Source: Methylopila capsulata
Lineage (GTDB): Bacteria; Pseudomonadota; Alphaproteobacteria; Rhizobiales; Methylopilaceae
Assembly (NCBI RefSeq): GCF_016907975.1
Contig: NZ_JAFBCY010000003.1
Location: forward strand, 372,001 to 436,000
DNA length: 64,000 bases
Reading direction: 5' to 3'
Part shown: piece by piece, positions 43,510-64,000 of the stretch
Layout: each line of letters opens with the position of its first letter
Numbering within the stretch: the stretch's first letter is position 1
Notes under the pieces: generated by a model
Told to the model about the DNA's origin: nothing
Seen by the model: the letters and a program-made list of their open reading frames with translations, nothing else
Database searches by the model: none
Position numbers and translations under genes: made by a program

Positions 43510-43570
43510 AATCGGACGGCTGGCGGGACGTTGAGCCGCGAACATGACGATAGCAATCGCCAAAATATTT

Positions 43571-43582
43571 GGAAACGGTTCA
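43571..43582. promoter_or_regulatory. LacI-type operator candidate (reverse TGAACCGTTTCC)
   Basis: GGAAACGGTTCA; read on the other strand it is TGAACCGTTTCC, one base from the copy at 54841 and two from the perfect palindrome at 48724. It lies between the LacI-family gene and the aminotransferase, about 70 bases upstream of the latter's start. Confidence 0.55.
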
Positions 43583-43644: not shown

Positions 43645-44886
<1,242 letters not shown>

Positions 44887-47595: not shown

Positions 47596-47660
47596 CGGCC
47601 GAGGCGAGCGTCTTGCTTGCAGAACGGAACGACGCAGGTCCTTCGGAGAAAGTCATCACG

Positions 47661-48723: not shown

Positions 48724-48735
48724 TGAAACGTTTCA
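48724..48735. promoter_or_regulatory. Perfect LacI-type operator TGAAACGTTTCA
   Basis: A perfect 12-bp palindrome with the central CG characteristic of LacI/GalR operators, about 105 bases upstream of the substrate-binding protein start (48838) and following a TTAGAAT sequence that could be a -10 box. It shares its half-sites with 43571 and 54841. Confidence 0.65.
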
Positions 48736-48837: not shown

Positions 48838-49869
48838 ATGGCATTCGAAACCACAGTGCATGCGGCGGTCAGGCGAAGCGGGCGGGCCGTTCTGGCCCTG
48901 GCGCTGGCCGTGACGCTCGGTCTCGGCGTGGACGCTCGGCCGGCGACGGCGGACGACGCGCCTCTCAAGAAGCTGGACTTCGCCGGATCCGTGACCTGGC
49001 TCGGCCAGATCCCCATTCTGGTCGCGATCGACAAGGGCTTCTTCAAGGAGCAGGGGCTCGACGTCGGCGTGCAGGTGATCCTGAACTCGTCCGATCGGGT
49101 GCGCGCGATCACGGCGGGCTCCGTCGCCTTCAGCAATCTTGGCCGCACCGCCGTGATCAGCGAAATGGCCCGGGGCAACAAGAGCTTCTACTACTTCGCG
49201 AACGTCGACGACTCGCCCGGCAACGAGGGGTGCTGGGCGCGCGCCGGCTTCGCGTCCCTCGGCGATCTCAAGGGCAAGAAGATCGCGGCCAACGCCTCCG
49301 CCGAGATCACCCTGGTCGGCCTCCTGAAGGAGGCGTCGATGACGACCAAGGACATCGAACTCGTCAACCTGCCGCCGAACGAGATGGTGGTCGCTCTCGC
49401 GAACAGCGACGTCGACGCCGCCTGCGTGTGGCGCCCGGTGCTCGACAAGCTGAAGACCGCAGCGCCCGACGGGAAGATGCTCGGCACCGACAAGGACACG
49501 GAGTCGTTCCGCACCTTCGGCACCATGTCGTCGCCCGACATCATGATCATCTCGAAGACGCTCGTCGACGAAGACCCGGAGTCCGCCCGCAAGATCGCCG
49601 TCGCGGTGATGAAGGGCGCCGACTTCGCGACGAAGGAGCCGGAGGAGACGGCCCGGACCGTCGCGCACTACTTCAAGCAGCCGCCCGACGCGGTGCTCGC
49701 CGGCATCAAGGACTTCAAATACTTCGGCGCCGTCGGTTGGCCCGATCATATCAAGCGCCACACCGAACAGATGAAGCGCCTCGCCGCCTACCTCGCCGAG
49801 GCCGGCAAGATCCCGGCGACCCCGGCGGTCGAGGAGTGGATGAACGTCAGTTTCATCCCCGCGCCCTGA
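48838..49869 (+). CDS. ABC transporter substrate-binding protein (SsuA/TauA/NMT1 type)
   Basis: A 343-residue exported protein. The N-terminal signal (about residues 10-40, VLALALAVTLGLGVDARPAT) precedes a two-lobed NMT1/SsuA-like domain: TWLGQIPILVAIDKGFFKEQ, SVAFSNLGRTAVISEM and NSDVDAACVWRPVLDKLK. Members bind sulfonates, nitrate, taurine, pyrimidine precursors or aromatic acids, so the ligand is open. GGAG at 48827-48830 marks the ATG at 48838. First gene of a six-gene operon whose other members are permease, ATPase and a GMC dehydrogenase complex; a perfect LacI-type operator lies upstream. Confidence 0.9.
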   Translation: MAFETTVHAAVRRSGRAVLALALAVTLGLGVDARPATADDAPLKKLDFAGSVTWLGQIPILVAIDKGFFKEQGLDVGVQVILNSSDRVRAITAGSVAFSNLGRTAVISEMARGNKSFYYFANVDDSPGNEGCWARAGFASLGDLKGKKIAANASAEITLVGLLKEASMTTKDIELVNLPPNEMVVALANSDVDAACVWRPVLDKLKTAAPDGKMLGTDKDTESFRTFGTMSSPDIMIISKTLVDEDPESARKIAVAVMKGADFATKEPEETARTVAHYFKQPPDAVLAGIKDFKYFGAVGWPDHIKRHTEQMKRLAAYLAEAGKIPATPAVEEWMNVSFIPAP

Positions 49870-49906
49870 CGCCGATCGAGCACACGCCTTCACGGAGAGC
49901 CGACGC

Positions 49907-50743
49907 ATGAACGCCGTACGCGCTATGACCCGATCCGTCGCGATCCCGCTGTTCGCCCTCGGCCGCCCGGGCGGGTGGTCCACCCGTGGGTCGATCCTGC
50001 TGCTGAACGTCCTCGGCGTCGCAGGCTTCCTGCTGCTGTGGCAGGTGGCGACGGCGGGAGGCTTCCTGTCGCCGCTGTTCCTGCCCTCGCCCGGCCAGGT
50101 GCTCAACGAGGCCACGCAGGTCGCGGCCACCGGCGAGCTCTGGCGCTCGATCGTGGACTCCTCGCGCCGCGTATTCTTCGGCTTCGCGCTCGCCGCGCTG
50201 TTCGCGGTGCCGCTCGGCGTGTTGATGGGACTGTGGGCGCCGGCGCGGGCCATTGTCGGCCCGTTCGTCTCGCTGCTGCGCCCTCTGCCCTCGATCACCT
50301 GGATTCCGCTGACGATGCTCTGGCTCGGCATCGGCGAGGCCCAGAAGATCGCGATCGTCTTCATGGGGACCTGGGTCTACATCCTGGTCTACACGGTCGA
50401 GAGCACGAAACGGGTCGACCCCTTGCTGATCAAGGCGGCGCGCAATCTCGGCGCGTCCGACCTTTCCGTGATGCGCGAGGTCATCCTGCCGGGCGCCCTC
50501 CCCGGCATTCTCGCCGGCCTCAAGGTCAGCCTCGCGATCTCCTGGTCCTGCGTGCTCTCGGCCGAGATGGTCGCGGCCCAGAGCGGCCTCGGCGCGCTGA
50601 TCTGGAACGCCAAGGACTGGAGCAACCTCGCGCTCGTTCTCGTCGGCATGGTCTGCATCTCGCTGACCGTCCTCGTCGCCGACCTCGCCGCCGGCGTGAT
50701 CGAGCGCCTGCTGCAGCCATGGGAACGGCACCGCCACGGCTGA
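49907..50743 (+). CDS. ABC transporter permease (SsuC/TauC type)
   Basis: A 278-residue inner-membrane protein with about six TM helices. The binding-protein-dependent transport signature is present: an FFGFALAALFAVPLGVLMG helix, the PSITWIPLTMLWLGIGEAQK region typical of SsuC/TauC/NrtB permeases, and the EAA loop LPGALPGILAGLKVSLAIS. It works with the preceding binding protein and the following ATPase in uptake of one organic anion. Confidence 0.92.
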   Translation: MNAVRAMTRSVAIPLFALGRPGGWSTRGSILLLNVLGVAGFLLLWQVATAGGFLSPLFLPSPGQVLNEATQVAATGELWRSIVDSSRRVFFGFALAALFAVPLGVLMGLWAPARAIVGPFVSLLRPLPSITWIPLTMLWLGIGEAQKIAIVFMGTWVYILVYTVESTKRVDPLLIKAARNLGASDLSVMREVILPGALPGILAGLKVSLAISWSCVLSAEMVAAQSGLGALIWNAKDWSNLALVLVGMVCISLTVLVADLAAGVIERLLQPWERHRHG

Positions 50744-50790
50744 CCCGAGCGGGACCGAACCGCGCCCCAAGAGACCGGAGATCACGACCG

Positions 50791-51585
50791 ATGCAAGCGA
50801 TCCTCGCCGCCGAGCACGTCACCAAGATCTATGCCGTCCACGCCAAAGAGACGACCGCCGTCCGCGACGTGTCGCTCGACATCCGCGAAGGCGAATTCGT
50901 CTGCCTGCTCGGCACCTCCGGCTGCGGCAAGTCGACGATGCTGAACCTGTTCGCGGGCTTCACCCAGCCCACCAACGGCCGCGTGCTGCTGCGCGGCCAG
51001 CCGATCACCAAGATCGAGCCCCGCTGCGGAATGGTGTTTCAGTCCTACGCGCTGTTCCCGTGGAAGACCGTGCGGCAGAACGTCGAGTTCGGGCCGAAGA
51101 TGCAGGGGCTTCCCGCCGCGCGGCAGCGGGAGCTCGCGGACCGCTACATCGCGATGGTGAAGCTGTCGGGCTTCGAGAACCATTACCCCGCGGAGCTTTC
51201 CGGCGGCATGCAGCAAAGGGTGACGCTGGCGCGCAGCCTCGCGGCCGACCCGGAAGTGCTGCTGATGGACGAGCCCTTCGCCGCGCTCGACGCCATGACG
51301 CGGCAGGTGATGCAGGAGGAGCTGCTCGCGATCCAGGAGGCGAGCGGCAAGACGGTGGTGTTCATCACCCACAACATCGACGAGGCGATCCTGCTGTCCG
51401 ACCGTATCGTGGTGATGGCCGCCAACCCCGGACGGGTGACGGCTGTGATCGAGAACCCGCTCAATCGGCCGCGCGACCTCGTGGCCCAGGCGACGCCCGC
51501 CTACGCCGCGCTCAAGAGCCGGATCTGGGACCTCGTGGTCGGCGACGTCCGCGGCGCCCTGGCGGGCCGCGCCGGCCGCGCCTGA
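50791..51585 (+). CDS. ABC transporter ATP-binding protein (SsuB/TauB type)
   Basis: A 264-residue ATPase: Walker A GTSGCGKST (41-49), Q-loop MVFQSYALFPWKTV, signature LSGGMQQRVTLARSL (about 136-150), Walker B VLLMDEPFAALDAMT and switch His in FITHNIDEAILL. The LFPWKTVRQNV and THNIDEA motifs identify the nitrate/sulfonate/taurine importer group. GGAG lies nine bases before the ATG. The dehydrogenase subunit gene follows after 25 bases. Confidence 0.93.
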   Translation: MQAILAAEHVTKIYAVHAKETTAVRDVSLDIREGEFVCLLGTSGCGKSTMLNLFAGFTQPTNGRVLLRGQPITKIEPRCGMVFQSYALFPWKTVRQNVEFGPKMQGLPAARQRELADRYIAMVKLSGFENHYPAELSGGMQQRVTLARSLAADPEVLLMDEPFAALDAMTRQVMQEELLAIQEASGKTVVFITHNIDEAILLSDRIVVMAANPGRVTAVIENPLNRPRDLVAQATPAYAALKSRIWDLVVGDVRGALAGRAGRA

Positions 51586-51610: not shown

Positions 51611-52321
51611 ATGACGGACGAGGGCCTCGACAGACGCCGCTTCCTCGGCGCGATCGGCGCGGGCGCCGCGACGCTTGGAGCCGATGTCGCCGACGCCGCC
51701 GAACCGGCGCCCATCGCCGCCTCCCCCGCGGCCGACCCGGTCGCGCCCGCAGGCTACCAGTTCCTCAACCCCGACGAAGCCGCCTTCATGGAGGCCTTCG
51801 TCGACCACCTCATCCCCGCCGACGCCCTCAGCCCCTCGGGCACGGAGCTTGGCGTCGCGGTCTACGCCGACCGGCAGCTCGCCGGCGCGTGGGGCAAGGG
51901 CGCGCGGATGTATCTGCAGGGGCCGTGGCGCAAGGGAACGCCAAACCAGGGCTGGCAGTCGCCGATGGCCCCGGCGGATCTCGTGAAGGCGGGAATCGCC
52001 GCGCTCGACGCTCACTGCCGCCGGGTGGCGAAGCTCCCGTTCGAGCGACTTGCGCCCGACGCGCGCGAGGAGACTGTGGCCGCTTTGGCCCAGGGCAAGA
52101 TCGAGCTCGACGGCGTCCCTTCGAAGCTCCTGTTCGACACGCTCTACGCGCTCGCCACCGAGGGCCTGTTCGCCGACCCGATCTACGGCGGCAACCGCGA
52201 CAAGGCCGGATGGCGGTTGGTGGGCTTCCCCGGCGTCATCGCGACCCATGCCCAGGACATCGAGACCTACCGCGGCCGTCGCTACGAGGCCGAACCGATG
52301 AGCATCGCCGACATGTCGTGA
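51611..52321 (+). CDS. Gluconate 2-dehydrogenase subunit 3 family protein (Tat-exported)
   Basis: A 236-residue protein with a twin-arginine signal (DRRRFLGAIGAGAATLGA) and the subunit 3 domain: FLNPDEAAFMEAFVDHLIPA, then GARMYLQGPWRKGTPNQGWQ and a C-terminal DPIYGGNRDKAGWRLVGFPG. In gluconate, fructose and glucoside dehydrogenases this small subunit carries the Tat signal and escorts the folded FAD subunit across the membrane. The GMC subunit and a cytochrome follow directly, completing the three-subunit complex. Confidence 0.92.
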   Translation: MTDEGLDRRRFLGAIGAGAATLGADVADAAEPAPIAASPAADPVAPAGYQFLNPDEAAFMEAFVDHLIPADALSPSGTELGVAVYADRQLAGAWGKGARMYLQGPWRKGTPNQGWQSPMAPADLVKAGIAALDAHCRRVAKLPFERLAPDAREETVAALAQGKIELDGVPSKLLFDTLYALATEGLFADPIYGGNRDKAGWRLVGFPGVIATHAQDIETYRGRRYEAEPMSIADMS

Positions 52322-52332
52322 GGGAGACTGCG

Positions 52333-54105
52333 ATGGCGACCAAGCTGAAACCCGTCGACGTGGTCATCGTCGGCATGGGATGGACGGGCGGCATCCTCGC
52401 CAAGGAGCTGTCCGACGCCGGACTGACCGTGCTCGGCCTCGAGCGCGGCGTGAACCGCACCACCGAGCCGGACTTCTCGGTGCCGATGATCCGCGACGAG
52501 CTGCGCTACGCCATCCGGCACGAGCTCTACATGGACGTCAGCCGGGACACGCTGACATTTCGCAACGCCGCGCGCGAGACGGCGCTGCCCATGCGACGGC
52601 TGGGCTCCTTCCTGCCGGGCGAAGGGGTTGGAGGCGCAGGCCTGCACTGGAACGGCCAGACCTACCGGTTCTCGCCTTCCGACCACCGTTTGCGGACGCG
52701 GGTGACCGAGCGGTACGGCGAGACGTTCATCCCCGAGGGCATGCAGCTCGCGGACTGGCCGATGAGCTACGACGAGCTCGAGCCCTACTACGACAAGTTC
52801 GAGTACATGGCGGGCATATCCGGCCAGGCGGGCAACATCCGCGGCGAGACGGTCGAAGGCGGAAACCCGTTCGAGGGACCTCGCTCCCGCGGCTATCCCA
52901 ACCCGCCGCTGAAGGCCAGCCTTTCAGGCGTGATGTACGAGGCCGCCGCTCGCGAGCTTGGCTACCATCCCTTCCCGCGGCCCGCCGCCAACATGAGCCG
53001 CGCCTACGTCAACCCGGACGGCATGAGCCTCGGCGAGTGCCAGTATTGCGGGCACTGCGAGAACTTCGGCTGCGAAGCCAACGCCAAGGCGAGCCCGCAC
53101 ATCACGGTCATTCCGGCCGCGCAGAAGAACGCGAACTTCAGCCTACGCACCCAGGCCTGGGTCACGCGGGTCGACCTGCACCCCGACGGCAAGCGCGCCA
53201 AGGGCGTCACTTACACCGACGTGCGGACGGGCGAGGAGTTCGAGCAGCCGGCCGACATCGTCGCGCTGTGCGCCTACGGGCTCGGCAACGTCCATCTCAT
53301 GCTTCTGTCCGGCATCGGCGCGCCCTACGACCCCGAGACCGCGACCGGCGTCGTCGGCAAGGGCTACTGCTACCAGCTCACCTCGACGGTGCAGACCTTC
53401 TTCCAGGACAAGAACTTCAACCCGTTCATGGGCGCAGGCTCGCTCGGCGTGGTCGTCGACGATTTCAACGGCGATAACTTCGACCATGGGCCGCACGGCT
53501 TCATCGGAGGCGCGTCGATCATCAACGCCACCACCCATGGCCGACCGATCGCCTACCGGCCGCTGCCGCCCGGAACGCCGAAGTGGGGGTCCCAATGGAA
53601 AGCGGCGGCGGGCCATTGGTACGGGCGGGCGGCGAGCATCGGCACGCAGGGCTCCAACATGGCGAGCCGTGGCAACTATCTCAGTCTCGACCCGACCTAT
53701 CGCAACGCTTTCGGTCAGCCGCTGCTGCGCATGACCTACGACTTCACCGAGAACGACTTCAAGCAGTCCGCTTTCACGACCAGGATCGCCCACGACATCG
53801 GGCGGGCGATGGGGCCGACGCACATCAGCCCGCTCGCGCCGAAATCATCCAGCTATTCGATCGTGCCCTATCAGAGCACGCACAACACCGGCGGCGCGAT
53901 CACCGGCGACGACCCACGGACCAGCGCGGTGAACCGTTATCTGCAGAGCTGGGACGTGTCGAACCTGTTCGTGGTCGGGGCCTCCGCCTTTCCTCAGAAC
54001 GCGGGCTACAACCCCACCGGCGCGGTCGGCGCGCTAGCCTACTGGACCGCCGACGCCATCCGGAACCGATATGTTGCGGCCCCTGGACCGCTGGTGCCGG
54101 CATGA
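52333..54105 (+). CDS. GMC oxidoreductase, FAD catalytic subunit of a membrane dehydrogenase
   Basis: A 590-residue flavoprotein related to gluconate 2-dehydrogenase and FAD-glucose/fructose dehydrogenase large subunits. FAD motif VVIVGMGWTGGILAKEL near the start; four cysteines C236, C239, C242 and C247 (CQYCGHCENFGC) in the position where related enzymes hold a 3Fe-4S cluster; active-site His in STHNTGGAITG and Asn in AGYNPTGAVGAL. It has no signal of its own and would be carried by the Tat-bearing subunit encoded upstream. It oxidises a hydroxyl group of a polyol or sugar acid in the periplasm and passes electrons to the cytochrome, whose gene overlaps its stop (ATGA). Confidence 0.92.
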   Translation: MATKLKPVDVVIVGMGWTGGILAKELSDAGLTVLGLERGVNRTTEPDFSVPMIRDELRYAIRHELYMDVSRDTLTFRNAARETALPMRRLGSFLPGEGVGGAGLHWNGQTYRFSPSDHRLRTRVTERYGETFIPEGMQLADWPMSYDELEPYYDKFEYMAGISGQAGNIRGETVEGGNPFEGPRSRGYPNPPLKASLSGVMYEAAARELGYHPFPRPAANMSRAYVNPDGMSLGECQYCGHCENFGCEANAKASPHITVIPAAQKNANFSLRTQAWVTRVDLHPDGKRAKGVTYTDVRTGEEFEQPADIVALCAYGLGNVHLMLLSGIGAPYDPETATGVVGKGYCYQLTSTVQTFFQDKNFNPFMGAGSLGVVVDDFNGDNFDHGPHGFIGGASIINATTHGRPIAYRPLPPGTPKWGSQWKAAAGHWYGRAASIGTQGSNMASRGNYLSLDPTYRNAFGQPLLRMTYDFTENDFKQSAFTTRIAHDIGRAMGPTHISPLAPKSSSYSIVPYQSTHNTGGAITGDDPRTSAVNRYLQSWDVSNLFVVGASAFPQNAGYNPTGAVGALAYWTADAIRNRYVAAPGPLVPA

Positions 54106-54494
54106 TGAGATCCGCACGCCTCCCGCTTGCGCTCGCAGCAGCTCTTGGAGCCGTCGGAGCGTCGTCCGCCTCGGCCGGCGACGCCGATCGTGGAAAGCTC
54201 GCGTTCGGCCGGTGCGCGGCCTGCCACGCCGTCTCGCAGGACGCCGCGGGCCTGCCCGGGCCGTCGCTTGCCGGCGTGATCGGGCGGCCGGCGGCGCAAC
54301 TCCCCGACTTCCGCTACTCACCCGCGCTGAAGCGGAGCGGCCTGACCTGGACCGAGGACAGCCTCGATCGCTTCCTTGCGAACCCCCAGGGCGTCGTCCG
54401 CGGCAACCGGATGCCGTTTTCGGGCGTGAGCGACGCCGCGGAGCGCTCCGACCTCATCGCCTATCTCGCGCGCGACGCGGGGCGGCCCCAGTAG
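54102..54494 (+). CDS. Mono-heme cytochrome c, electron acceptor of the GMC dehydrogenase
   Basis: A 130-residue exported class I cytochrome c: signal peptide (residues 1-25, LALAAALGAVGASSASA), heme motif CAACH (38-42) and axial Met in VVRGNRMPFSGVSD. It resembles small c550/c552-type proteins in place of the usual tri-heme subunit of gluconate dehydrogenases. Its start overlaps the GMC stop by four bases, showing translational coupling. Last gene of the importer/dehydrogenase operon. Confidence 0.92.
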   Translation: MMRSARLPLALAAALGAVGASSASAGDADRGKLAFGRCAACHAVSQDAAGLPGPSLAGVIGRPAAQLPDFRYSPALKRSGLTWTEDSLDRFLANPQGVVRGNRMPFSGVSDAAERSDLIAYLARDAGRPQ

Positions 54495-55217
54495 ACCCCT
54501 GGCCGGACGCGCGACGGCCCGGTCCGCCACGCCGCCTTCGCGAGCCTCCACCACCGCCCCTTGAGACCTCCGCATGTCGCAGGCGCCCAGGTCCGCCGGC
54601 CACGCGCGTCGGCGCGATGCGCTCGGCGTCGCCCTGGGACGCCGCGGCCCTTCACGACACGCCGGGGTCATAAAGCCCGGCCCTAAGGTCATGGACGCCC
54701 GCAAGACGCGGGCGCGACGTCGAGGACCGCCCGCATAACGCGGAATGGCGAGAGCGCCCTGCCGCCGCAACGCCCACGCTACGCACATCACGACCCAGAA
54801 TTATTGCGATGCACAAAATCCAGCAATCATGCCTATTAAATGAACCGTTTCATCACTGTCATGGCCCACGGATCGGCATTCCGATCCGGCAAACGGCATC
54901 AAAGCAATCTTAGGGGAAATACGAAGCAAAATAAGACGTCATTACGCCGTGATATTCATCCCTTGGATTTTAATTCCAAAAAACGAAGTACTCGATACCC
55001 CCGTAAAACCGGATGAAAGTCGCCACATCTCCGCGCATACCGATTGACGCGACGCACAATTATGGTATCGGTTCATAGTTGTCGCATGGCGGGCTAAGGC
55101 GAAAGCCGAGACCCCCGACGGCCTTGCCGCCGCGCCATCCGACGCCGTCCAGCGTGCTGATTGAGCTTCGTTTTCTCGAATACGTCCGTTGCCCCATCGG
55201 TCGAAGAGAGGAACGTC
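54495..55217. promoter_or_regulatory. Long intergenic region before the PEP-carboxylase-like gene
   Basis: About 720 bases without a supported gene. The first 300 bases are GC-rich with no reading frame worth calling. From about 54790 to 55080 it is AT-rich and contains the LacI-type operator at 54841-54852 and a TTGGA-N7-TCCAA repeat (54963-54979). The promoter of the PEP-carboxylase-like operon probably lies here, giving a long untranslated leader. No riboswitch or RNA gene was recognised. Confidence 0.45.
54841..54852. promoter_or_regulatory. LacI-type operator TGAACCGTTTCA
   Basis: A near-perfect palindrome (one mismatch; flanked by A and T to give ATGAACCGTTTCAT) in the AT-rich promoter region of the gene at 55218. 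It matches the perfect site at 48724 in 11 of 12 positions and the site at 43571 (reverse strand) in 11 of 12. Confidence 0.6.
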
Positions 55218-57881
55218 ATGTTCTCCACCACCGACATGTCCATCTGGACGTCGGCGCAGAGCGAGCGCGCCGTCGCGCCGGAACCGGCGCCCCGATCCGA
55301 TCCGCGGCTCTGGCGCGCGGGAAGCGCGCCGAGGCAGGTGTTCGATGCGCTGTGGGCGTCGTTCCACCGCGCCGCCGCACGCGACGGAGAGCTGTCGCCG
55401 CCGATCGGCGAAGCGCCTTCCCCGACCGAGATGCGGCTGAAGCTGCTGCTCATGCGGCAGCTTCTGATCGACCTGGCGCTCAACGCGCAGTTTCTCCGCA
55501 ACGACCCCAACCGCGCGCCCGTCGCCGCGAGCGGGGCCGAGCCGATCGAGCTTCCGCTCCGGCTCGAACTTGGCGTGCACTGCCAGGAAACCGAGTATCT
55601 CCGGGCCAATGTCATCGACGGTCAGCGGCGGGTGCTGTCCGCGCTCGACGAGGAGGTCGAACCCGCGCGCTCCATCGCGTTGGAGGGGGCGCTTGGCGCG
55701 CTCTGGGCGGCGCTTTGGCGTCAGGAGGACGTCGATCTCGTCGCGACCCAGATCGTGTACGCCGACCGCGTCTACGACGCTCTGCCGCGCGGCCTCGACC
55801 GGGCTCTCGGCGCGCTTGCGGCGGCGGGCGTGCGGCCCAGCCACCCGGAGCGCTGGTTCGCCGGCTACACGTGGCTTTACGGAGATCGCGACGGCCGGCC
55901 GTACGACACCAACGCCCACACCGAGCGCGTCGCCGCCGCTCTCGAAGACGCCGTTCGCGCCAATTACCGGCGCGACGTCGCGGCGCTCGCAGCCGCCTTT
56001 CCAGACGAACCGCTGTACGCGGCCTGCCTTCGCAAGCTCGATCCCGCCGACGCCGACGCGTTCTCGAGCCCCGACCAGTTCGTCGCCACGCTGCGCGCCG
56101 GCGCCCACGTCGCGGATCGCCGCGTGCAGGACCTCCTGCGGCGCGTCCAGGCCTTCGGCTTTCACTTCCTCAAGGTCGAGTTTCGGCAGAACGCCCTGAA
56201 GTTCGAAGAGGTCGTCGACGCCGTGCTGTCGCAGGAGACGATCGAGCAACGGCTGGGCGAGCGCGCCGGTTACGCCGAACTGTCCGTGCCGAAGCGCCTA
56301 CGCTTGCTGACCGCCCTGCTGCAGGACGAGGACCACGACCTGCCCGCCCGGCTTTGGAATGACTACTGGTCAGCCGAGGAGCCTCGCTTCCGAGCCAAAC
56401 AAGAGGCCTACGCCGGCGGCGACTACATCGAGCTGTTCAAGTCGGATCCCGACTACATCCGCGCATACGACGCCCGGATGACCTACGACTGCCTCCGGAT
56501 GATCGCGCGGTACGGCGACCGCATGACGATGCACGGCATTGCGGAGCTTGAGGACATCGACGCCGCTCTGGCGCTGCTCTTCCTCTTCGCCGCGGCCGGC
56601 GCCCGCCACGCCGTCGACATCGCGCTGCAGCCCGAGGACATGGACGGCGCCGTGGCGCTGGAGGACGCGGTCGCCCGGCTCTACGAAAACCCCGCCTACC
56701 GCGAGCACCTGCGCGTCAGGGGCGACGTCCAGTACGTCACCTTCGGCCCGAGCGACACCGGCAAGGCCGGCGGCAAGGCGATGCACAAGGCGAACATGAA
56801 GATCGCCCGCCGCCACCGTGAGATCGCGAGCGCTTACGGGATCGAGCTCGTTCCGAACATCGTCATCGGTCACGAGCACGCTCGGTGCAACGGCCCTCAG
56901 GCCGAGATCCTGGAAGAGTACGGAGCGGCGGACGGCGACGCCGTCCGCTACATGCTGTCGGGCTGCATCGAGATGCGGAGCTTCCTGCTCACCCTGCGCA
57001 TGGCCGAGCAGTCGATCGCCAACATCCTGACCGCCCAGGGACTGCGCGCGGCGGAGGCGCGACGCCTGGCGCCGGCCGAGAGCCAGGCGCGCGCGGCGGA
57101 AGGGCGCGAGATCGACTGGCTCGCCATCGTCCGGCTCTACAAGAGCCGCTTCTTCGACCACCCTTCGCTCCCGGCGTTGCTGAAGGCCGTCGCGCGCTTC
57201 GACCTCGTGCGGGCGACCGCGAAGGGCACGCGGCCCCCCTCGCGGAACTTCCTGATCAAGGATCTCGAGTCCGATCCCGCCTCGATCCGCGCGATCCCGT
57301 GGACCCGCGCCATTATGCTCTGCGGGCTGCATCATGAACTGATTGGCGCCTCGACGCTCGCTGATCGGGACGCGGGCGAACTCGCCGCGCTCGCCAAAGC
57401 CGACCGCACCTTCAGCCGGTATGTGACGAACGTCGCCTACGCCGCAGCCCGCTCCAATCTCGAGCTCGCCTGGCGCACCCTGGGCGGCGCGCCGTTGAGC
57501 CGAGCGGACGTCGAAGCGTTCGGCGCCGAAGACGCGGCCGCCGCCTCGGACCCCGCGGCGGCGCTCCTGGCCTTCGTCCATCTCGAGTACGTCGCCGCCA
57601 AGCGCTTCGTCTTCAAGACGACGCGCGGGCGCGAGCCGGCCGACGCCTGGGCCATCCGGACGGACGAACTGCTGGCGGACTGGCCGGAGCTGCGCGCCGA
57701 GGTCGCCTGGAAGGAGGCCGCGCTCGCGCCCTACCACGAGTTCCTCGTGACGACCCGCCGAGATCCGGACGCGCTCTCTCGAAACGCGATCCACGACCTC
57801 TACTCCGGCTACCTGCTGTCGGCGAACACCGACCTGTCCCTCGTCCACCCGGAGACCGCTCGCGCCCTGAACTGGAGCTGA
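55218..57881 (+). CDS. Phosphoenolpyruvate carboxylase-like protein lacking canonical active-site motifs
   Basis: An 887-residue protein aligning along its length with PEP carboxylase: GDRDGRPYDTN (family GGDRDGNPxVT), LKVEFRQNALKFEEVVDAVL (family LDIRQxSxRH), and DVQYVTFGPSDTGKAGGKAM (family VMIGYSDSxKDAG). However, the TAHPTE histidine motif is not found, the Asp of SDSxKDAG is Ala, and the glycine/arginine loop RGGSxGRGG is replaced by IGHEHARCNGP; the C-terminal NTG end is also absent. It is therefore a divergent paralogue, perhaps acting on another phosphorylated or carboxylated substrate. GAGAGGA marks the start at 55218 (frame open to 55161). First gene of the aromatic cluster and preceded by a LacI-type operator. 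Confidence 0.8.
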   Translation: MFSTTDMSIWTSAQSERAVAPEPAPRSDPRLWRAGSAPRQVFDALWASFHRAAARDGELSPPIGEAPSPTEMRLKLLLMRQLLIDLALNAQFLRNDPNRAPVAASGAEPIELPLRLELGVHCQETEYLRANVIDGQRRVLSALDEEVEPARSIALEGALGALWAALWRQEDVDLVATQIVYADRVYDALPRGLDRALGALAAAGVRPSHPERWFAGYTWLYGDRDGRPYDTNAHTERVAAALEDAVRANYRRDVAALAAAFPDEPLYAACLRKLDPADADAFSSPDQFVATLRAGAHVADRRVQDLLRRVQAFGFHFLKVEFRQNALKFEEVVDAVLSQETIEQRLGERAGYAELSVPKRLRLLTALLQDEDHDLPARLWNDYWSAEEPRFRAKQEAYAGGDYIELFKSDPDYIRAYDARMTYDCLRMIARYGDRMTMHGIAELEDIDAALALLFLFAAAGARHAVDIALQPEDMDGAVALEDAVARLYENPAYREHLRVRGDVQYVTFGPSDTGKAGGKAMHKANMKIARRHREIASAYGIELVPNIVIGHEHARCNGPQAEILEEYGAADGDAVRYMLSGCIEMRSFLLTLRMAEQSIANILTAQGLRAAEARRLAPAESQARAAEGREIDWLAIVRLYKSRFFDHPSLPALLKAVARFDLVRATAKGTRPPSRNFLIKDLESDPASIRAIPWTRAIMLCGLHHELIGASTLADRDAGELAALAKADRTFSRYVTNVAYAAARSNLELAWRTLGGAPLSRADVEAFGAEDAAAASDPAAALLAFVHLEYVAAKRFVFKTTRGREPADAWAIRTDELLADWPELRAEVAWKEAALAPYHEFLVTTRRDPDALSRNAIHDLYSGYLLSANTDLSLVHPETARALNWS

Positions 57882-57910
57882 CCGCCGTCGCGCGCCCAAA
57901 GGAGACCGCC

Positions 57911-58807
57911 ATGCAACGCCTCGCCCTGCGTCCGCCCTCCGAACTGGACGTCGACTCCGCCGGCCTTCGCATCACCGACGCCGTCGTCGCGAGCTTCGCC
58001 GACGCGCCGGACCCGCGGCTCCGGAAACTGATGACCACCTTGGTCCGCCATCTGCACGACGTGGTGCGCGAGACCGGGCTTACGATGGAGGAGTGGCGCT
58101 TCGCGGTGGACTACCTCACGCGCACCGGCCTCACCTGCACCGACGCGCGCCAGGAGTTCATTCTGCTGTCGGACGCACTCGGCGTCTCCATGCTGGTCGA
58201 CGCGATCAACCACGAGGCGGCCGGGGCGACCGAGACCACGGTGCTCGGGCCCTTCTACGTGGCGGACTCGGCCGTCATGCCGCTCGGCGCCGACATCTCG
58301 CTCGGCCTCCCCGGCACGCCCCTGCTGGTCGAGGGAACGGTGAGCTCGACCTTCGGCGGCGCCCTCGCCGGCGCCTCGGTCGAGGTCTGGCAGTCGGACG
58401 CGGACGGAACCTACGACGTCCAGAAGGACGATGGCGAGGGCTACGCGCTGAGGGCCCACTTCAAGACCGACGGCCAGGGCCGCTTCCACTTCTGGTCTAT
58501 CACGCCGTGCAGCTATCCGATCCCGCATGACGGACCCGTGGGCGAGATGCTGGCGGCGACCGGTCGCCACCCCTACCGGCCGGCGCACGTTCACTTCCTG
58601 ATCTCCGCGCCCGGCCACGCGCCGCTCGTCACGCACGTCTTCGCCGAGGGCGACCCCTACCTCGCGGACGACGCCGTGTTCGGCGTGAAGCCCTCCCTCG
58701 TGCGCCCGTTCGCGCTCCAGGATCCCGAAGACGCGCCCGCCGGCCGCCGCGACGGCCGGCCCTGGCGACGCCTGTCCTACGACTTCGCCCTCAACCCCAC
58801 GCGCTGA
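57911..58807 (+). CDS. Intradiol ring-cleavage dioxygenase (hydroxyquinol/catechol 1,2-dioxygenase type)
   Basis: A 298-residue non-heme Fe(III) dioxygenase. The four iron ligands sit at canonical positions: Tyr168 (GTYDVQ), Tyr202 (CSYPIPHDGPVG), His226 and His228 (RPAHVHF). The N-terminal helical linker domain (RLRKLMTTLVRHLHDVVRET-like segment) used for dimerisation is present, and GPFYVADS follows it. The overall pattern favours hydroxyquinol 1,2-dioxygenase, which opens benzene-1,2,4-triol to maleylacetate, over plain catechol cleavage. An FAD monooxygenase gene follows 22 bases later and could supply the triol. Confidence 0.92.
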   Translation: MQRLALRPPSELDVDSAGLRITDAVVASFADAPDPRLRKLMTTLVRHLHDVVRETGLTMEEWRFAVDYLTRTGLTCTDARQEFILLSDALGVSMLVDAINHEAAGATETTVLGPFYVADSAVMPLGADISLGLPGTPLLVEGTVSSTFGGALAGASVEVWQSDADGTYDVQKDDGEGYALRAHFKTDGQGRFHFWSITPCSYPIPHDGPVGEMLAATGRHPYRPAHVHFLISAPGHAPLVTHVFAEGDPYLADDAVFGVKPSLVRPFALQDPEDAPAGRRDGRPWRRLSYDFALNPTR

Positions 58808-58829
58808 CGCGCCCGAGGAGGCATTCCGC

Positions 58830-59972
58830 ATGGACGAGATCGTCATCATCGGCGGGGGCATCGGCGGCCTGACGCTCGCCCTCGCGCTGGAGAAGGCCGG
58901 AATTCCGAGCCGCATCTACGAGGCCGCGGCCGAGATCCGGCAGGTGGGCGTCGGCATCAACGTGCTCCCCTACGCCACGGAGGTCCTCGCCGGCCTTGGC
59001 CTGGAGCCCGCGCTCGCCGAACGGGCGATCGCCACCCGCGAGGCCGCCTATTTCAGCCGGTCCGGCGTGCTCATTCACCGCGAGCCCGTCGGCCGCTTCG
59101 CCGGCCTCGACGCCCCGCAGTTTTCGATCCACCGGGCGGATCTGGTCGACGTTCTGCTCGGCGCCGTGCGCGAACGGCTGGGCGCGGACCGCGTCACGCT
59201 GGGCGCCCGCTGCGTCGGCGCGCGGCAGACGGCGGACGGCGTCACGGCGGACTTCGTCGACCGGCGCACCGGCGCGCCCCTGCCGTCCGCGACCGGCGCG
59301 GCGCTTGTCGGATGCGACGGCATCCATTCGACGATCCGGGCCATGTTCTACCCGCACGAGGCCCCGCCGCGGTATTCGGGCGTGTTCATGTGGCGCGGGG
59401 TTTCGCGCGGGCCGCGCCTGCTGACGGGGGCGAGCATGGTGCGCGCCGGCGTCACCAGCGTCGGCAAGATGGTCGTCTATCCGATCAAGGACCTCGACGA
59501 CGGTCGGCAGTTGCTGAACTGGGTGGCGGAGCTGGACCTGCCCGACAGCGCTTCCGGCTTCACCCGCGACCGGGACTGGAACAAGACCGGCGACGTCGCG
59601 GACTTCGCCCACGTCTACGCCGACTGGCGTTTCGACTGGCTCGACGTGCCCGCGATGATCCGCGACGCGGAGATCGTGCTGCGCTTCCCGATGATGGACC
59701 GCGACCCGGTCGACCACTGGAGCTTCGGCCGCATCACGCTGCTCGGCGATGCGGCGCACCCGATCGTGCCGCTCGGCTCGAACGGCGCCGGCCAGGCGAT
59801 CCTCGACGCTCGGGCTCTGGCCGACAGCCTCGCCCTCGCGCCGCCGGAGACCGCCTTCCGCGTCTACGAACGCCGCCGTCTTCCGGCCACCACGACGCTC
59901 GTGATGTCCGATCGAGCCGGCACACCCGACGAACGCCTGCGCGCGGCGCACGCGCTCGAAGCCGCTTCCTGA
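58830..59972 (+). CDS. FAD-dependent aromatic hydroxylase (group A monooxygenase)
   Basis: A 380-residue flavoprotein monooxygenase: GxGxxG motif IVIIGGGIGGLTLALALEKA, the DG region ALVGCDGIHSTIRAM, and the second FAD motif LLGDAAHPIVPLGSNGAGQA. It belongs to the salicylate/4-hydroxybenzoate hydroxylase-like group, which hydroxylates phenolic acids, sometimes with decarboxylation. Between a dehydroshikimate dehydratase (giving protocatechuate) and a hydroxyquinol-type dioxygenase, oxidative decarboxylation of protocatechuate to hydroxyquinol is the simplest hypothesis. Confidence 0.9.
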   Translation: MDEIVIIGGGIGGLTLALALEKAGIPSRIYEAAAEIRQVGVGINVLPYATEVLAGLGLEPALAERAIATREAAYFSRSGVLIHREPVGRFAGLDAPQFSIHRADLVDVLLGAVRERLGADRVTLGARCVGARQTADGVTADFVDRRTGAPLPSATGAALVGCDGIHSTIRAMFYPHEAPPRYSGVFMWRGVSRGPRLLTGASMVRAGVTSVGKMVVYPIKDLDDGRQLLNWVAELDLPDSASGFTRDRDWNKTGDVADFAHVYADWRFDWLDVPAMIRDAEIVLRFPMMDRDPVDHWSFGRITLLGDAAHPIVPLGSNGAGQAILDARALADSLALAPPETAFRVYERRRLPATTTLVMSDRAGTPDERLRAAHALEAAS

Positions 59973-60018
59973 TCCCCCGATCCCTGCGCCGCAGGGCGAC
60001 GACGTGGAGAACGCAGCC

Positions 60019-61422
60019 ATGGCTTACCACTGGTCCCCCGACAGCTGGCGGTCGAAACGCGCGCGCCAGATGCCGACCTATGCCGACCGCGGCGCGCTCG
60101 AGCGCACCGAGCACGGTCTGAAATCGCGGCTTCCCCTCGTCTCGATCGCGGAGACGCGGCGGCTGAAGTCGCAGCTCGCGCGCGTGGCGGCGGGCGAGGC
60201 CTATCTGCTGCAGGGCGGGGATTGCGCGGAGAGCTTCTCGGAGTGTGACGCCGAGTGCCTGCGCGCCACCGTCGCCACCCTGATGCAGATGTCGGCGGCG
60301 CTGACGCTCGGAGCGCTCGCGCCGGTGGTGAAGATCGGTCGGCTCGCCGGACAGTTCGCCAAGCCGCGATCGGAAGCGACCGAAGTGCGCGACGGCGTCG
60401 AACTGCCCTCGTACCGCGGCGACATCGTCAACGACGCGGCCTTCAGCCAGGACGCCCGCGACGCCGATCCCAGCCGCATGCTCGCGGCCTACGCGCAGTC
60501 GGCGTCGACGATGAATCTCGTTCGCTCGCTCTCGCAGAGCGCGCTCGCGGACTTCACCCGCATGGGCGCGAGCGCCTGGGACGCAGGCCGTGGCGACCCT
60601 GACCCCGTCGGCGCGCGCTTGAGCGAAACCGCGGCCTTCATGTCGGCCGCCGGGCTGATCGCCGGCCCCGGCCTGCAGATGGGCATGAGCGACATCTATT
60701 CGAGCCACGACGCCGTGCTGCTGAACTACGAGGAGGCGATGACCCGCTTCGACGCCGAAAGCGGGGACTGGTACGACGCCTCGGCCCATATGCTCTGGAT
60801 CGGCGAGCGAACCCGCGACCCCGCCGAAGCCCATGTCGAGTACCTTCGCGGCGTCGGCAACCCCATCGGCCTGAAGTGCAGCGCGGCGCTGGGGGGCGAC
60901 GAACTGCTCAAGCTGATCGATATCCTGAACCCTGCGAACGAGCCCGGACGGCTGACGCTCATCGTCCGCATGGGCGCGGGCGCGATCGAGGCGCGCCTGC
61001 CCGCTCTTGTGCGCACGGTGCGGAGCGAAGGCCGCGCGGTGGTTTGGGCGAGCGACCCGATGCACGGCAACACGATAAAGCTTTCGAACGGCATGAAGAC
61101 GCGCCCGTTCGACGCCGTCTTCGCCGAGGCGAGCCGCTTCTTCGAGGTGCTCTGGAGCGAGGGCGCGCACCCCGGCGGCTTGCATCTGGAGATGACCGGC
61201 AAGGATGTGACCGAATGCACCGGCGGCCGCCGCGGCGTGACCGAGGCGATGGTCCCCGAGCGCTACCACACCGCCTGCGACCCGCGCCTGAACGGCTCCC
61301 AATCGCTCGAGCTCGCGATCGGCGTCGCCGATCAGATCAAGGCTGAACGCGAAGCGCGCATCGCCGGGGCGCTCTACGCGAGCCACCGCGCATCGCGCCT
61401 GCAGGAGCGCGTGGTGGCCTGA
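60019..61422 (+). CDS. Class II 3-deoxy-7-phosphoheptulonate (DAHP) synthase
   Basis: A 467-residue class II (plant-type) DAHP synthase, condensing PEP and erythrose-4-phosphate at the entry of the shikimate pathway. Features: LLQGGDCAESFSECDAE with the metal-binding Cys, KIGRLAGQFAKPRS for phosphate binding, SSHDAVLLNYEEAMTR, VVWASDPMHGNTIK and EMTGKDVTECTGGRR. GTG 60004 is possible, but GGAG before ATG 60019 and the typical start MAYHWSPDSWR favour the latter. A dedicated copy in an operon with a dehydroshikimate dehydratase suggests secondary metabolism and not general amino-acid synthesis. Confidence 0.93.
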   Translation: MAYHWSPDSWRSKRARQMPTYADRGALERTEHGLKSRLPLVSIAETRRLKSQLARVAAGEAYLLQGGDCAESFSECDAECLRATVATLMQMSAALTLGALAPVVKIGRLAGQFAKPRSEATEVRDGVELPSYRGDIVNDAAFSQDARDADPSRMLAAYAQSASTMNLVRSLSQSALADFTRMGASAWDAGRGDPDPVGARLSETAAFMSAAGLIAGPGLQMGMSDIYSSHDAVLLNYEEAMTRFDAESGDWYDASAHMLWIGERTRDPAEAHVEYLRGVGNPIGLKCSAALGGDELLKLIDILNPANEPGRLTLIVRMGAGAIEARLPALVRTVRSEGRAVVWASDPMHGNTIKLSNGMKTRPFDAVFAEASRFFEVLWSEGAHPGGLHLEMTGKDVTECTGGRRGVTEAMVPERYHTACDPRLNGSQSLELAIGVADQIKAEREARIAGALYASHRASRLQERVVA

Positions 61423-61452
61423 CCCGACCCTGCGACAAGAGGAGAGATCGAG

Positions 61453-63447
61453 ATGCAAGCATCGGACGTCTTCAAGCCTCGCTCCGCCTCGATCGCGACC
61501 GTGTCGCTGAGCGGCGACCTCCGCGAAAAGCTCATCGCAGCCGCCGCGGTGGGCTTCGACGGCGTGGAGATCTTTGAGAATGATCTCCTCGCGTATGCCG
61601 GCTCGCCGCAAGACGTGCGGAAGCTCGCACAGGATCTCGGTCTCGCGATCGTGCTCTATCAACCTTTCCGGGATTTCGAAGCGACGCCCGGGCGCCTCGC
61701 GGCCAACCTCGATCGCGCCGAACGGAAGTTCGACGTCATGCAGCAGCTTGGGGTCGATCTCCTGCTCGCGTGCAGCAACACACAGGCGGACGCCATCGAC
61801 GACGACGCACGTGCGGCGGCCGACCTTCGGGCGCTGGCCGACCGCGCCGGGGCGCGTGGCCTGCGGATTGGCTACGAGGCCCTTTCTTGGGGAAGGCACG
61901 TCCACCGATGGAGGCGCGCCTGGGAGATCGTGGGCAGGGCGGATCACCCCGCCCTGGGACTCGTGCTCGACAGCTTCCACACCCTCTGCGTGGGCGACGC
62001 ATTCCCCGGCGGCGCGGACGCGCCTCCCGGCGACAAGATCTTCTTCGTTCAGTTGGCCGACGCGCCGCGACTGACGCTCGACCCGCTCTCATGGAGCCGG
62101 CACCACCGCGTGTTTCCGGGCCAGGGCCAGCTGGCGGTCGCCGAGTTTCTGAAAGCCGTGTGCGCAGCCGGTTACGCCGGCCCCCTCTCGCTCGAAGTCT
62201 TCAACGACAATTTTCGTGCGGCCCCTCCCCTCGCGATCGCGCGGGACGGACTTCGCTCCCTGCTCGCGCTGCAGGACGAAACGCGTGTTGGCGGCGGCGC
62301 GCCGTTGCCCGCCGTCGGGATGCATCGCGGCGTGGCCTATCTCGAATTCGCGGTCGACGCAGACGCCCGCGAACAGTTCGCCGCGCGCTTCGCCGAACTC
62401 GGCTTTGTTCACGTCGGCAGGAAGAGGACGAAGGCCGTCGATCTATACCGCCAGGGCGAAGTCGCGGTAGCGCTCAACGCTGACCCTCGCGGCGAAGCGG
62501 GCGGAAGGGCTCGCACCTGCGGGCCCTCGCTGCACGCGATCGGCCTGGCCATCGACGCCCCGGCGGCGGCGCTCGCGCGCGGGCGGGCCTTTCGCTGCGA
62601 GGCTTCGCCGTCCGACGACGGCGTCAGAGACGCGTCGTCCCTCGTGTTACGGACGCCCGACCGCATCTTGATCGAGCTTCTAGGACCAAATGGCCTCAAC
62701 GAGGTCACGGCGCGCTTCGATCCGGTGGAGGACGTCCGGCCGGAGGTGGGAGAACTCATTCGAATTGACCACCTCGCACAGGCCATTCCGGTGCAGGAAA
62801 TGGACGGCATCGCGTTATTCCTCACGGCCGTCCTGGGACTCTCAGCCCAGCAGTCCTGTGAAATCGCTGACCCCCATGGGTTGATCGAAAGCCGGGCCAT
62901 GGTGAGCGACGGACGCGCACTGGCGTTGCCCCTCAACGCGACGAAAAGCGCGGGCACCATGACCGGCCGACGCATCGCGCGGCCCGAACGTCCGGCAGTT
63001 CACCACGTCGCTTTCGAGACCGACGACATTTTCGCGGCGGTCAGATCAATGCAAACGCGGGGAGCCTCGCCGTTGGCTATCCCCCACAATTACTATGAGG
63101 ATCTGGGGTCGAGATTTATGCTCGATAGCGAGTTCGTCAAAATCCTCGAAGACCATTCGATCATGTACGATGAGGACGAGTTCGGAAGATTTCTACATGT
63201 TTACGGGCCGGCATTCGCCAATGGATTTTTTTTAGAGATCGTCGAGCGAAAAGGTTATTTGGGCTTTGGCGCAGCCAACGCGCCAATCAGGGTCGCCTGC
63301 CAGGCTCATGAGTATGAGAGGAACGCCGAGCTTGAAACGCAGCGGATCGGGGCAATGAGGCCGGATGGCGGTCGGCCTCCAGGCGGTAGGCTTGCTACCG
63401 CAGCGGCCAGCCCTTCGACACGGCGGCCGGCGCCCACTTGTCCGTGA
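61453..63447 (+). CDS. 3-Dehydroshikimate dehydratase, QuiC1-like two-domain protein
   Basis: A 664-residue fusion. Residues about 10-280 form a sugar-phosphate-isomerase/AP-endonuclease TIM barrel (VGFDGVEIFENDLLAYAGS, GYEALSWGRHVHRWRRAWEI, LDSFHTLCVGD, GPLSLEVFNDNFR), as in QuiC/AsbF enzymes that dehydrate 3-dehydroshikimate to protocatechuate. Residues about 290-620 are a 4-hydroxyphenylpyruvate-dioxygenase-like VOC domain (IDHLAQAIPVQEMDGIALFL, VHHVAFETDDIFAAV, FFLEIVERKGYLGFGAANAP), the known QuiC1 layout. After GAANAPIRVACQA, where homologues end, another 45 arginine/proline-rich residues follow and overlap a hairpin, so the true C-terminus may have been lost by frameshift. Codon use in 62800-63300 is more AT-rich than in neighbouring genes. 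Confidence 0.88.
   Translation: MQASDVFKPRSASIATVSLSGDLREKLIAAAAVGFDGVEIFENDLLAYAGSPQDVRKLAQDLGLAIVLYQPFRDFEATPGRLAANLDRAERKFDVMQQLGVDLLLACSNTQADAIDDDARAAADLRALADRAGARGLRIGYEALSWGRHVHRWRRAWEIVGRADHPALGLVLDSFHTLCVGDAFPGGADAPPGDKIFFVQLADAPRLTLDPLSWSRHHRVFPGQGQLAVAEFLKAVCAAGYAGPLSLEVFNDNFRAAPPLAIARDGLRSLLALQDETRVGGGAPLPAVGMHRGVAYLEFAVDADAREQFAARFAELGFVHVGRKRTKAVDLYRQGEVAVALNADPRGEAGGRARTCGPSLHAIGLAIDAPAAALARGRAFRCEASPSDDGVRDASSLVLRTPDRILIELLGPNGLNEVTARFDPVEDVRPEVGELIRIDHLAQAIPVQEMDGIALFLTAVLGLSAQQSCEIADPHGLIESRAMVSDGRALALPLNATKSAGTMTGRRIARPERPAVHHVAFETDDIFAAVRSMQTRGASPLAIPHNYYEDLGSRFMLDSEFVKILEDHSIMYDEDEFGRFLHVYGPAFANGFFLEIVERKGYLGFGAANAPIRVACQAHEYERNAELETQRIGAMRPDGGRPPGGRLATAAASPSTRRPAPTCP
63383..63401. 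terminator. Perfect hairpin GCGGTAG-N5-CTACCGC
   Basis: A perfect 7-bp stem with loop GCTTG lies inside the arginine/proline-rich 3' tail of the dehydroshikimate dehydratase frame. Such a structure would be expected after, not within, a gene, supporting a shortened true coding region. No T-run follows. Confidence 0.35.
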
Positions 63448-63682
63448 CGCTTCGCCTGCGGACCTCCAGCACGTTGAGGTCGACTGCGGCGCCGTCGAGC
63501 GGCCGCCTCGGCGATGCGGCAAGACCGCTCGGCGCCTGGCGGCGGCGCAGCGTCTGCGCGAGCCGCGGCTCCCGGTGCGCGACTCGCGAACGTGAGGCCG
63601 GGGTCAGGCGATGTCGCGTCCCTTAAGCCAGCCATAAGCTTCGGCCTGATCATGCCAGCTCCCGCCTAAGAGGAGCTTTGGA

Positions 63683-64000
63683 ATGCGTCTCGACCTCGCC
63701 CGCGCCGCGGCCGCTCTCGCGCTGTCATTCGTCTCGCTTCTTCCTGCGCTTGCGCAGACGAACGCGCCTCCGTCCGTCGACGAGGTCATGTCGCTGAAGG
63801 CGAGGCGGGCGGACGACGGCTCGATCGAGCTTGCCTTCGCCGTCGCGCCCGGCGTCTACCTCTATCGCGACAAGATCGCCGCGACGTCTGGAGGCCAGCC
63901 GATCCGGGTCGAGACGCCGACCGGAAAAACCAAGGACGATCCGACGTTCGGCGCCGTCGAGATCTACGACCACGACGTCGCGGCCCGGGTCGACCCGCGC
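63683..64000 (+). CDS. dsbD: Thiol:disulfide interchange protein DsbD, N-terminal part (cut by window edge)
   Basis: 106 codons to the right edge with no stop. A signal peptide (AAAALALSFVSLLPALAQ) is followed by the N-terminal periplasmic domain of DsbD: EVMSLKARRADDGSIELAFA, VAPGVYLYRDKIAA, TPTGKTKDDPTFG and VEIYDHDVAARV. DsbD carries electrons from cytoplasmic thioredoxin across the inner membrane to periplasmic thiol proteins. AGGAGC lies seven bases before the ATG. The membrane and C-terminal thioredoxin domains lie beyond the window. Confidence 0.88.
   Translation, partial: MRLDLARAAAALALSFVSLLPALAQTNAPPSVDEVMSLKARRADDGSIELAFAVAPGVYLYRDKIAATSGGQPIRVETPTGKTKDDPTFGAVEIYDHDVAARVDPR

Follow-up and report, generated by a model that had tools for sequence, protein, structure and literature searches.

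The stretch of DNA analyzed here, 64,000 nucleotides from Methylopila capsulata (NCBI RefSeq assembly GCF_016907975.1, contig NZ_JAFBCY010000003.1, positions 372,001 to 436,000; hereafter the window), carries five contiguous genes at 55218-63447. All lie on the + strand and are separated by gaps of 29, 22, 31, and 30 bp. When the encoded proteins were assigned to families by using Pfam, NCBIfam, and the best solved structures, they proved to be, in order, a divergent relative of phosphoenolpyruvate (PEP) carboxylase (PEPC; 55218..57881), a hydroxyquinol-type intradiol dioxygenase (57911..58807), a PhzS-like aromatic hydroxylase that uses flavin adenine dinucleotide (FAD; 58830..59972), a class II 3-deoxy-D-arabino-heptulosonate 7-phosphate (DAHP) synthase that is the second copy in the genome (60004..61422), and a dehydroshikimate dehydratase of the QuiC type, which is fused to a domain resembling 4-hydroxyphenylpyruvate dioxygenase (HPPD; 61453..63447). 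These families, their order, and their coordinates are as given in an initial annotation of the window, which proposed an operon that builds an aromatic ring and then opens it.

Conservation of the operon and its surroundings

The same five genes are found in identical order in Methylopila sp. Yamaguchi, the nearest named relative of the window genome in these searches (its locus, L006, and the genus genome G170 are counted here as one genome). Ratios of nonsynonymous to synonymous substitution (dN/dS) between the two range from 0.11 to 0.16 for each of the five genes, with only the shared part of the dehydratase being compared, and indicate that all five are under purifying selection. Given the shared gene order and these low ratios, the five-gene set is not a chance grouping. 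Thus, the combination of ring-building and ring-opening genes is real, is conserved as a set, and is under selection. A promoter scan of positions 54400-63800 yielded no sigma-70 match, and the terminator-like sites in that interval number two, on the other strand, which is fewer than in shuffled sequences.

The conserved unit is larger than these five genes. When the window was compared at the nucleotide level with 38.5 kb of G170 at a threshold of 1e-10, positions 42391-63318 (21 kb) aligned as one conserved stretch at 87-90% identity, broken only in two intergenic regions (43420-43566 and 54479-55164). Hence, although the five genes are contiguous, as initially described, they form the end of a block that starts not at 55218 but upstream, at 42391. 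Outside the block, the sole further alignment at this threshold is a second match of 42391-42572 in G170 (88%), approximately 3.5 kb past the opposite end of the block. This second match is possibly a trace of movement of the island, or it may be a related regulator gene.

A PEPC homolog that has lost carboxylation residues

The initial annotation placed a PEPC-like protein first in the operon, and membership in this family is supported by a score of 73.5 bits to PF00311 (gathering score 22.4) and by a 98.1% hhalign probability to E. coli PEPC and the canonical PEPC of the same genome. However, the protein is very divergent. It scores 69.7 bits against the NCBI PEPC equivalog model PRK00009, for which the cut-off is 815, and is 23% identical to E. 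coli PEPC, whereas the ordinary PEPC encoded elsewhere in the genome scores 785 bits to PF00311. Nine of 12 collected sequences of its clade were aligned with E. coli PEPC to compare individual residues. Beyond detectable homology, the clade shares with PEPC E506 and D543 (E. coli numbering), which we take to be metal ligands, and several Arg and Lys residues whose roles in PEPC are likewise presumed (R396, K546, R587, R699, and R713), all of which are kept in 9/9 sequences. It differs from PEPC in that H138, H579, and R581, presumably the carboxylation and phosphate residues, are replaced in 9/9 sequences, by Q/K, I/V, and I/T/M, respectively. Because these catalytic residues are lost, an ordinary PEPC role was rejected, and the protein should not be read as a supply of oxaloacetate. 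It is a PEPC homolog that probably has a different reaction, with a keto acid or PEP as the likely substrate of metal-enolate chemistry. Structure prediction for the PEPC-like protein (five sequences) was unsuccessful, with a mean predicted local distance difference test score (pLDDT) of 43 and a predicted template modeling score (pTM) of 0.36.

Relatives of this protein, which belongs to a rare clade, are scattered. Within the genus designated g218, they occur in 2/398 phylum genomes (besides the window genome) and in 4/149 genomes of g218 itself. Others reside on two Pantoea ananatis plasmids (34% identity) and on three IMG/VR contigs (42%), and an Arthrobacter plasmid record carries a gene annotated as ppc that matches half of the protein at 23%. 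No relative of an IMG/VR copy was found among phage records at 1e-5. The gene order PEPC-like, D-2-hydroxyacid dehydrogenase, RraA-like is present in all five g218 loci read (families were searched for one of them) and is repeated in the three IMG/VR contigs. On the Pantoea plasmids, the order is PEPC-like, major facilitator superfamily (MFS) transporter, beta-keto acid cleavage enzyme, D-2-hydroxyacid dehydrogenase, again with families searched for one plasmid. In other bacteria, members of the clade thus accompany D-2-hydroxyacid dehydrogenases in small operons, which are found on plasmids, next to a transposase, and on contigs that are classed as viral. Between the dehydrogenases of Pantoea and g218 the identity is 39%, and the dehydrogenase of the Methylopila block is more distant (20-28%), so the pairing is one of kind rather than of close orthologs. 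Such a recurring partner makes the clade testable with a few purified proteins.

The three-gene cassette was located at L126 8479-12967 and also in L127, L131-L133, and L164-L166, where its flanks differ and include a transposase in one case. On the Pantoea plasmids (L122 and L123, both at 14614-20652), the cluster adjoins a site-specific integrase and a transposase.

Predicted enzymes for building and opening an aromatic ring

The block DAHP synthase matches PF01474 with 573 bits over residues 10-442 of 472, above the gathering score, and its best match in the Protein Data Bank (PDB) is 5uxm. Against the NCBI equivalog TIGR01358 it scores 576.3 bits, close to but below the cut-off of 614.7. 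The other copy in the genome is 52% identical. When 84,980 species genomes were searched by pattern scan, 240 relatives were found, and among the best 80 that were kept the Yamaguchi protein is 93% identical, whereas all others are at most 55% identical. In a midpoint-rooted tree for which only 27 of the 80 retrieved loci were used (L006 included), the block enzyme groups with its Yamaguchi counterpart on a single deep, long branch that excludes the remaining 27 rows. The housekeeping enzyme of the same genome groups among Hyphomicrobiales (fork support 86/80), and a recent duplication was rejected on the basis of these two placements.

The dehydratase combines a TIM-barrel domain with the HPPD-like domain (PF01261, PF14696, and PF00903) and aligns with 5hmq over 12-619 (E value 4.9e-168), and it scores 617.7 bits against the NCBI QuiC equivalog NF042435, below the cut-off of 1200. 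In structure-based alignments inspected by eye, the residues that we take to be catalytic look intact in both this protein and the DAHP synthase. The dioxygenase (PF00775 and PF04444) reaches the cut-off of no NCBIfam dioxygenase model. Its closest solved relative, the hydroxyquinol 1,2-dioxygenase 1tmx (1.1e-82, compared with 6.3e-37 for the best catechol enzyme), suggests that it is of the hydroxyquinol type rather than the catechol or protocatechuate type.

The hydroxylase exceeds the cut-off for the PRK07538 subfamily (479.8 bits vs 400), and its best structures are 2rgj/3c96, which we take to be the flavin monooxygenase PhzS. Three of its plasmid relatives, out of 87 records, were examined for gene context. 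One neighbors a gentisate 1,2-dioxygenase gene, one neighbors cupin, fumarylacetoacetate-hydrolase, and maleylpyruvate-isomerase genes, and the third has neither. Because of these neighbors, the substrate is most likely a hydroxybenzoate. Our guess is that the enzyme converts protocatechuate to hydroxyquinol. A report on Pseudarthrobacter includes the suggestion that protocatechuate is oxidatively decarboxylated to hydroxyquinol (PMC10815724), which might serve as a precedent.

The genome offers little sign of the genes that usually follow such a ring cleavage. The operon carries its sole PF00775 gene, and no other intradiol dioxygenase was found. No PcaI in the genome exceeds the cut-off, the best candidate being a long open reading frame (ORF) with 82.7 bits vs 128.5. 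Also, no convincing maleylacetate reductase was found in the genome, the nearest match being partial and 33% identical. On these three grounds, no usual route for degrading the product can be seen, and a purely catabolic reading is weak. The weak maleylacetate reductase match, G000:C3:466240, is a 376-amino-acid ORF resembling iron dehydrogenases that, by eye, is preceded by an IclR-like regulator ORF and followed by a DapA-family-like ORF; it was judged to be generic, which falls short of proof. Among four loci that encode related dioxygenases (58-61% identical), two (L167 and L170) have a maleylacetate-reductase-like ORF a few genes away, although these loci were read by eye and the ORF picker may have missed further examples.

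Other genes of the block

The remaining genes of the block lie upstream of the operon and extend well beyond the initial annotation, which missed the regulator and its sites, the importer, the MFS transporter, and the glucose-methanol-choline (GMC) dehydrogenase. A LacI-family regulator (PF00356 and Peripla_BP_3) is encoded on the - strand at 42384..43409, divergently from the rest, and is conserved in the block. All other genes are on the + strand, beginning with a class I/II aminotransferase at 43654..44886 (PF00155; 588 bits to PRK06107, slightly below the cut-off of 617). The MFS transporter at 44930..46243 (PF07690) has the myxochelin exporter MxcK as its top model, with 161.7 bits against a cut-off of 525. 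It is followed by an FAD amine oxidase of the DAO family at 46258..47595 (PF01266) and by the D-2-hydroxyacid dehydrogenase at 47658..48590 (PF02826), which is GhrA-like (190 bits, cut-off 403). An importer of the ATP-binding cassette (ABC) type occupies 48838..51585 and comprises a substrate-binding protein of the NMT1/SsuA family (48838-49869), a BPD_transp_1 permease (49907-50743), and an ABC_tran ATPase (50785-51585). A dehydrogenase complex at 51611..54494, recognized by family search and included in the block alignment, consists of Gluconate_2-dh3 (51611-52321), GMC (52333-54105), and cytochrome c (54105-54494) proteins.

An aminoshikimate route was considered and rejected, both because the DAHP synthases nearest to the block enzyme are ordinary proteobacterial ones and because neither AroB nor 3-amino-5-hydroxybenzoate (AHBA) synthase is the best family for any block gene. 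A weak DegT/DnrJ match (26.6 bits) was seen for the aminotransferase, vs 255.6 bits to Aminotran_1_2.

Putative LacI-type operators

Three sites found by pattern scan resemble TGAAACGTTTCA, which we take to be the LacI-family operator consensus. The site at 48724..48735 before the importer genes matches it exactly (TGAAACGTTTCA, 12/12) and is identical in Yamaguchi, the site at 54841..54852 (TGAACCGTTTCA, 11/12; TGAACCGGTTCA in Yamaguchi) lies 366 bp before the PEPC-like start, and the site at 43571..43582 (GGAAACGGTTCA, 10/12; GGAACCGGTTCA at the corresponding position in Yamaguchi) precedes the aminotransferase gene. Together with a further 10/12 site at 7570, these are the best four + strand sites in the window. 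When the 14-base site before the PEPC-like gene was used as a query, 11 window matches were found within three mismatches vs 1.55 expected, a count in which palindromic sites may be included on both strands. Across the 4.1-Mb genome, the pattern TGAAMCGKTTCA occurs exactly in two places, both inside the block, and within one mismatch in 12 places, of which three are in the block; the backwards pattern, used as a control, gave three places. The sites are kept in Yamaguchi, although only 358 of 665 aligned positions are identical in the intergenic DNA around the site before the PEPC-like gene.

Most operators of LacI-family regulators are palindromic and have CG at their center, and more than 75% of the sites are placed 30-140 bp before a start codon (PMC4052901). 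A LacI-family gene accompanied by central-CG palindromes before three gene groups has the form of a LacI regulon, and the block is predicted to be LacI-controlled. A separate conserved element at 55040-55075 (TTGACGC ... TATGGTATCGG), approximately 150 bp before the PEPC-like start, is kept in Yamaguchi amid diverged DNA and is a possible promoter.

Distribution of the block and its components

The block is rare even among close relatives. The PEPC-like gene was detected at 1e-30 in 2/61 relatives, equal to 2/13 genus genomes with the window genome included, and the GMC gene was detected at 1e-50 in the same two of 13, with neither marker in the 11 remaining genomes. Of 115 loci, five encode two or more of the five proteins (at 1e-10), all of them from the window genome or Yamaguchi, although many flanks are short. 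The five-gene set that the initial annotation suggested seeking in other genomes is complete in Yamaguchi, but elsewhere the components are only separate in the loci examined, which by that annotation's own standard for refutation counts in part against its proposal. Some of these components are individually common: QuiC-type dehydratases are found at 1e-60 in 77/297 genomes of the order, and the dioxygenase at 1e-50 in 74/249 genomes. Within the genus, both occur only in the window genome and G170 among the genomes drawn. A close relative of the hydroxylase stands beside the dioxygenase in only the two block loci out of 30 dioxygenase loci, with one other locus giving a 28% match.

The block was not recognized as a unit on known plasmids, where 0/45 matching records cover 80% of it. 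Plasmid relatives of the hydroxylase (87 records) and the DAHP synthase (64 records) are all below 60% identity, and for the binding protein of the importer no match on plasmids was found at 1e-30. The GMC protein matches 120 plasmid records, at up to 62%, and so is not diagnostic. No tRNA was found in the window, and a scan for repeats near the block ends gave short or imperfect pairs only.

A possible build-and-open pathway and its alternatives

We consider it about an even chance that the block encodes a dedicated route in which an aromatic ring is made de novo, cut to an acid, and then tailored. The substrates and reaction order that we infer are as follows. The block DAHP synthase would draw PEP and erythrose 4-phosphate into the shikimate route, and the AroB and dehydroquinase of the cell, which are assumed, would supply 3-dehydroshikimate for conversion by the dehydratase to protocatechuate. 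The PhzS-like FAD enzyme would then hydroxylate protocatechuate, probably with loss of CO2, to give hydroxyquinol, whose ring the intradiol dioxygenase would open, probably to maleylacetate. Rather than being burned, the ring-cleaved acid might be tailored by some of the PEPC-like enzyme, the aminotransferase, the D-2-hydroxyacid dehydrogenase, and the GMC dehydrogenase. The altered PEPC-like enzyme could act on a keto acid or PEP by way of a metal-bound enolate, with no normal carboxylation, and MFS export and ABC import would serve the pathway. A more specific version, in which the ring is made only to be cleaved into a secreted specialized acid through a new activity of the PEPC scaffold (carboxylation residues lost, metal and enolate site kept), is offered more tentatively, at roughly one chance in three. 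The presence of a second, divergent DAHP synthase in the same operon as a dehydroshikimate dehydratase favors a dedicated route. The island is patchily distributed and is read as one of specialized metabolism, and its pairing of enzymes that begin, complete, and cleave an aromatic ring with an altered PEPC relative suggests a small acid product rather than mere consumption of aromatics. The reading of the product as a ring-cleaved acid, as in the initial annotation, is supported to this extent, but its further identification as a chelator, pigment, or cofactor precursor is conjectural.

Several observations pull the other way. The full set is carried by two genomes only, and it is distribution that speaks for import of the island, its G+C content being similar to that of the rest of the window. 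The importer and GMC dehydrogenase fit substrate uptake and oxidation, and the MFS transporter is only possibly an exporter, given a weak call with an MxcK score far below the cut-off. Other CoA-transferase or iron-dehydrogenase genes could degrade maleylacetate. With regard to regulation, 9/12 near-matches of the operator pattern fall outside the block, the pattern was picked after one site had been seen (so that the count is supportive, not blind), and the operator before the PEPC-like gene lies beyond the 30-140 bp zone. Moreover, most LacI-family regulators that have been characterized respond to sugars and govern the use of carbohydrates (PMC4052901).

Some of these points would suit a catabolic island, in which the importer and GMC dehydrogenase take up and oxidize a cyclitol or a quinate- or shikimate-like compound that the dehydratase, hydroxylase, and dioxygenase then degrade, while the DAHP synthase copy replaces shikimate intermediates drained by the dehydratase. 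This explanation keeps some weight because the block contains a LacI regulator, an importer, and the GMC, Gluconate_2-dh3, and cytochrome c genes. In addition, dehydratases of this type are common in the order, and soil-bacterial dehydratases are known from quinate and shikimate catabolism (PMC9324987). We nevertheless regard this explanation as less likely, at perhaps one chance in four. The genome yielded no second intradiol dioxygenase, no PcaI above the cut-off, and no convincing maleylacetate reductase, a DAHP synthase is not needed for catabolism, and no scanned block gene has quinate dehydrogenase or dehydroquinase as its best family, a search that covered the block and not the rest of the genome. 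Less probable still is that protocatechuate (or hydroxyquinol) is itself what the cell uses, whether in iron handling or in redox reactions, and that the dioxygenase merely removes excess. The DAHP synthase would fit such a role, as would the myxochelin exporter as top MFS model were its score not so far below the cut-off, and in Corynebacterium glutamicum iron limitation is reported to be relieved by external protocatechuate, which QsuB can form there (PMC10128138). However, the hydroxylase and dioxygenase sit within the same tight operon and would act at once. Finally, the genes might be regulated together without serving one common product, with the DAHP synthase and PEPC-like protein rebalancing central carbon and the others degrading stray aromatics, which would agree with the separate occurrence of the components in other loci. 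We hold this to be improbable, because in both carriers the genes keep their order and close spacing and are under purifying selection, and because the PEPC-like residues are changed.

Relationship to known systems

The proposed build-and-open route resembles an engineered pathway to cis,cis-muconate, which uses DAHP synthase, the dehydroshikimate dehydratase AroZ, the protocatechuate decarboxylase AroY, and the catechol 1,2-dioxygenase CatA. Both would proceed from sugar through protocatechuate to a ring-opened dicarboxylic acid by way of an intradiol dioxygenase. The block differs in being natural, in having an FAD hydroxylase in place of the decarboxylase and a dioxygenase of the hydroxyquinol type, and in its extra PEPC-like enzyme, regulator, and transporters. 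Its dehydratase is of the same two-domain type as those in QuiC/QsuB quinate-shikimate catabolism, but its operon includes a DAHP synthase, and neither a further intradiol dioxygenase nor a PcaI over the cut-off was found in the genome. Similarly, its dioxygenase is closest to that of the hydroxyquinol pathway, in which hydroxyquinol 1,2-dioxygenase acts with maleylacetate reductase, whereas the block has no reductase partner and the ring is apparently supplied de novo. Anabolic dehydroshikimate dehydratases such as AsbF of petrobactin biosynthesis likewise serve protocatechuate production, as is proposed here. Unlike in AsbF pathways, the dehydratase of the block has two domains and is of the QuiC type, cleavage of the ring would follow, and no siderophore synthetase is present among the scanned block genes.

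What is novel is the natural combination, along with the PEPC-like clade, rather than the single pathway enzymes. In the open-licence PubMed Central literature, no account of such a cluster or of this side branch of PEPC was found. If the proposal is correct, the engineered sugar-to-muconate route would have a counterpart in nature, and the fold of a central carbon-fixation enzyme would support a reaction of a new type.

Two further features of the window lie outside the block. At 7570-7581 is the LacI-operator-like sequence TTAAGCGTTTCA (10/12), and directly before the block, at 33915-42232, three consecutive ORFs read, by eye, like a glutamate synthase, a sulfite-reductase flavoprotein, and a heme-handling protein.

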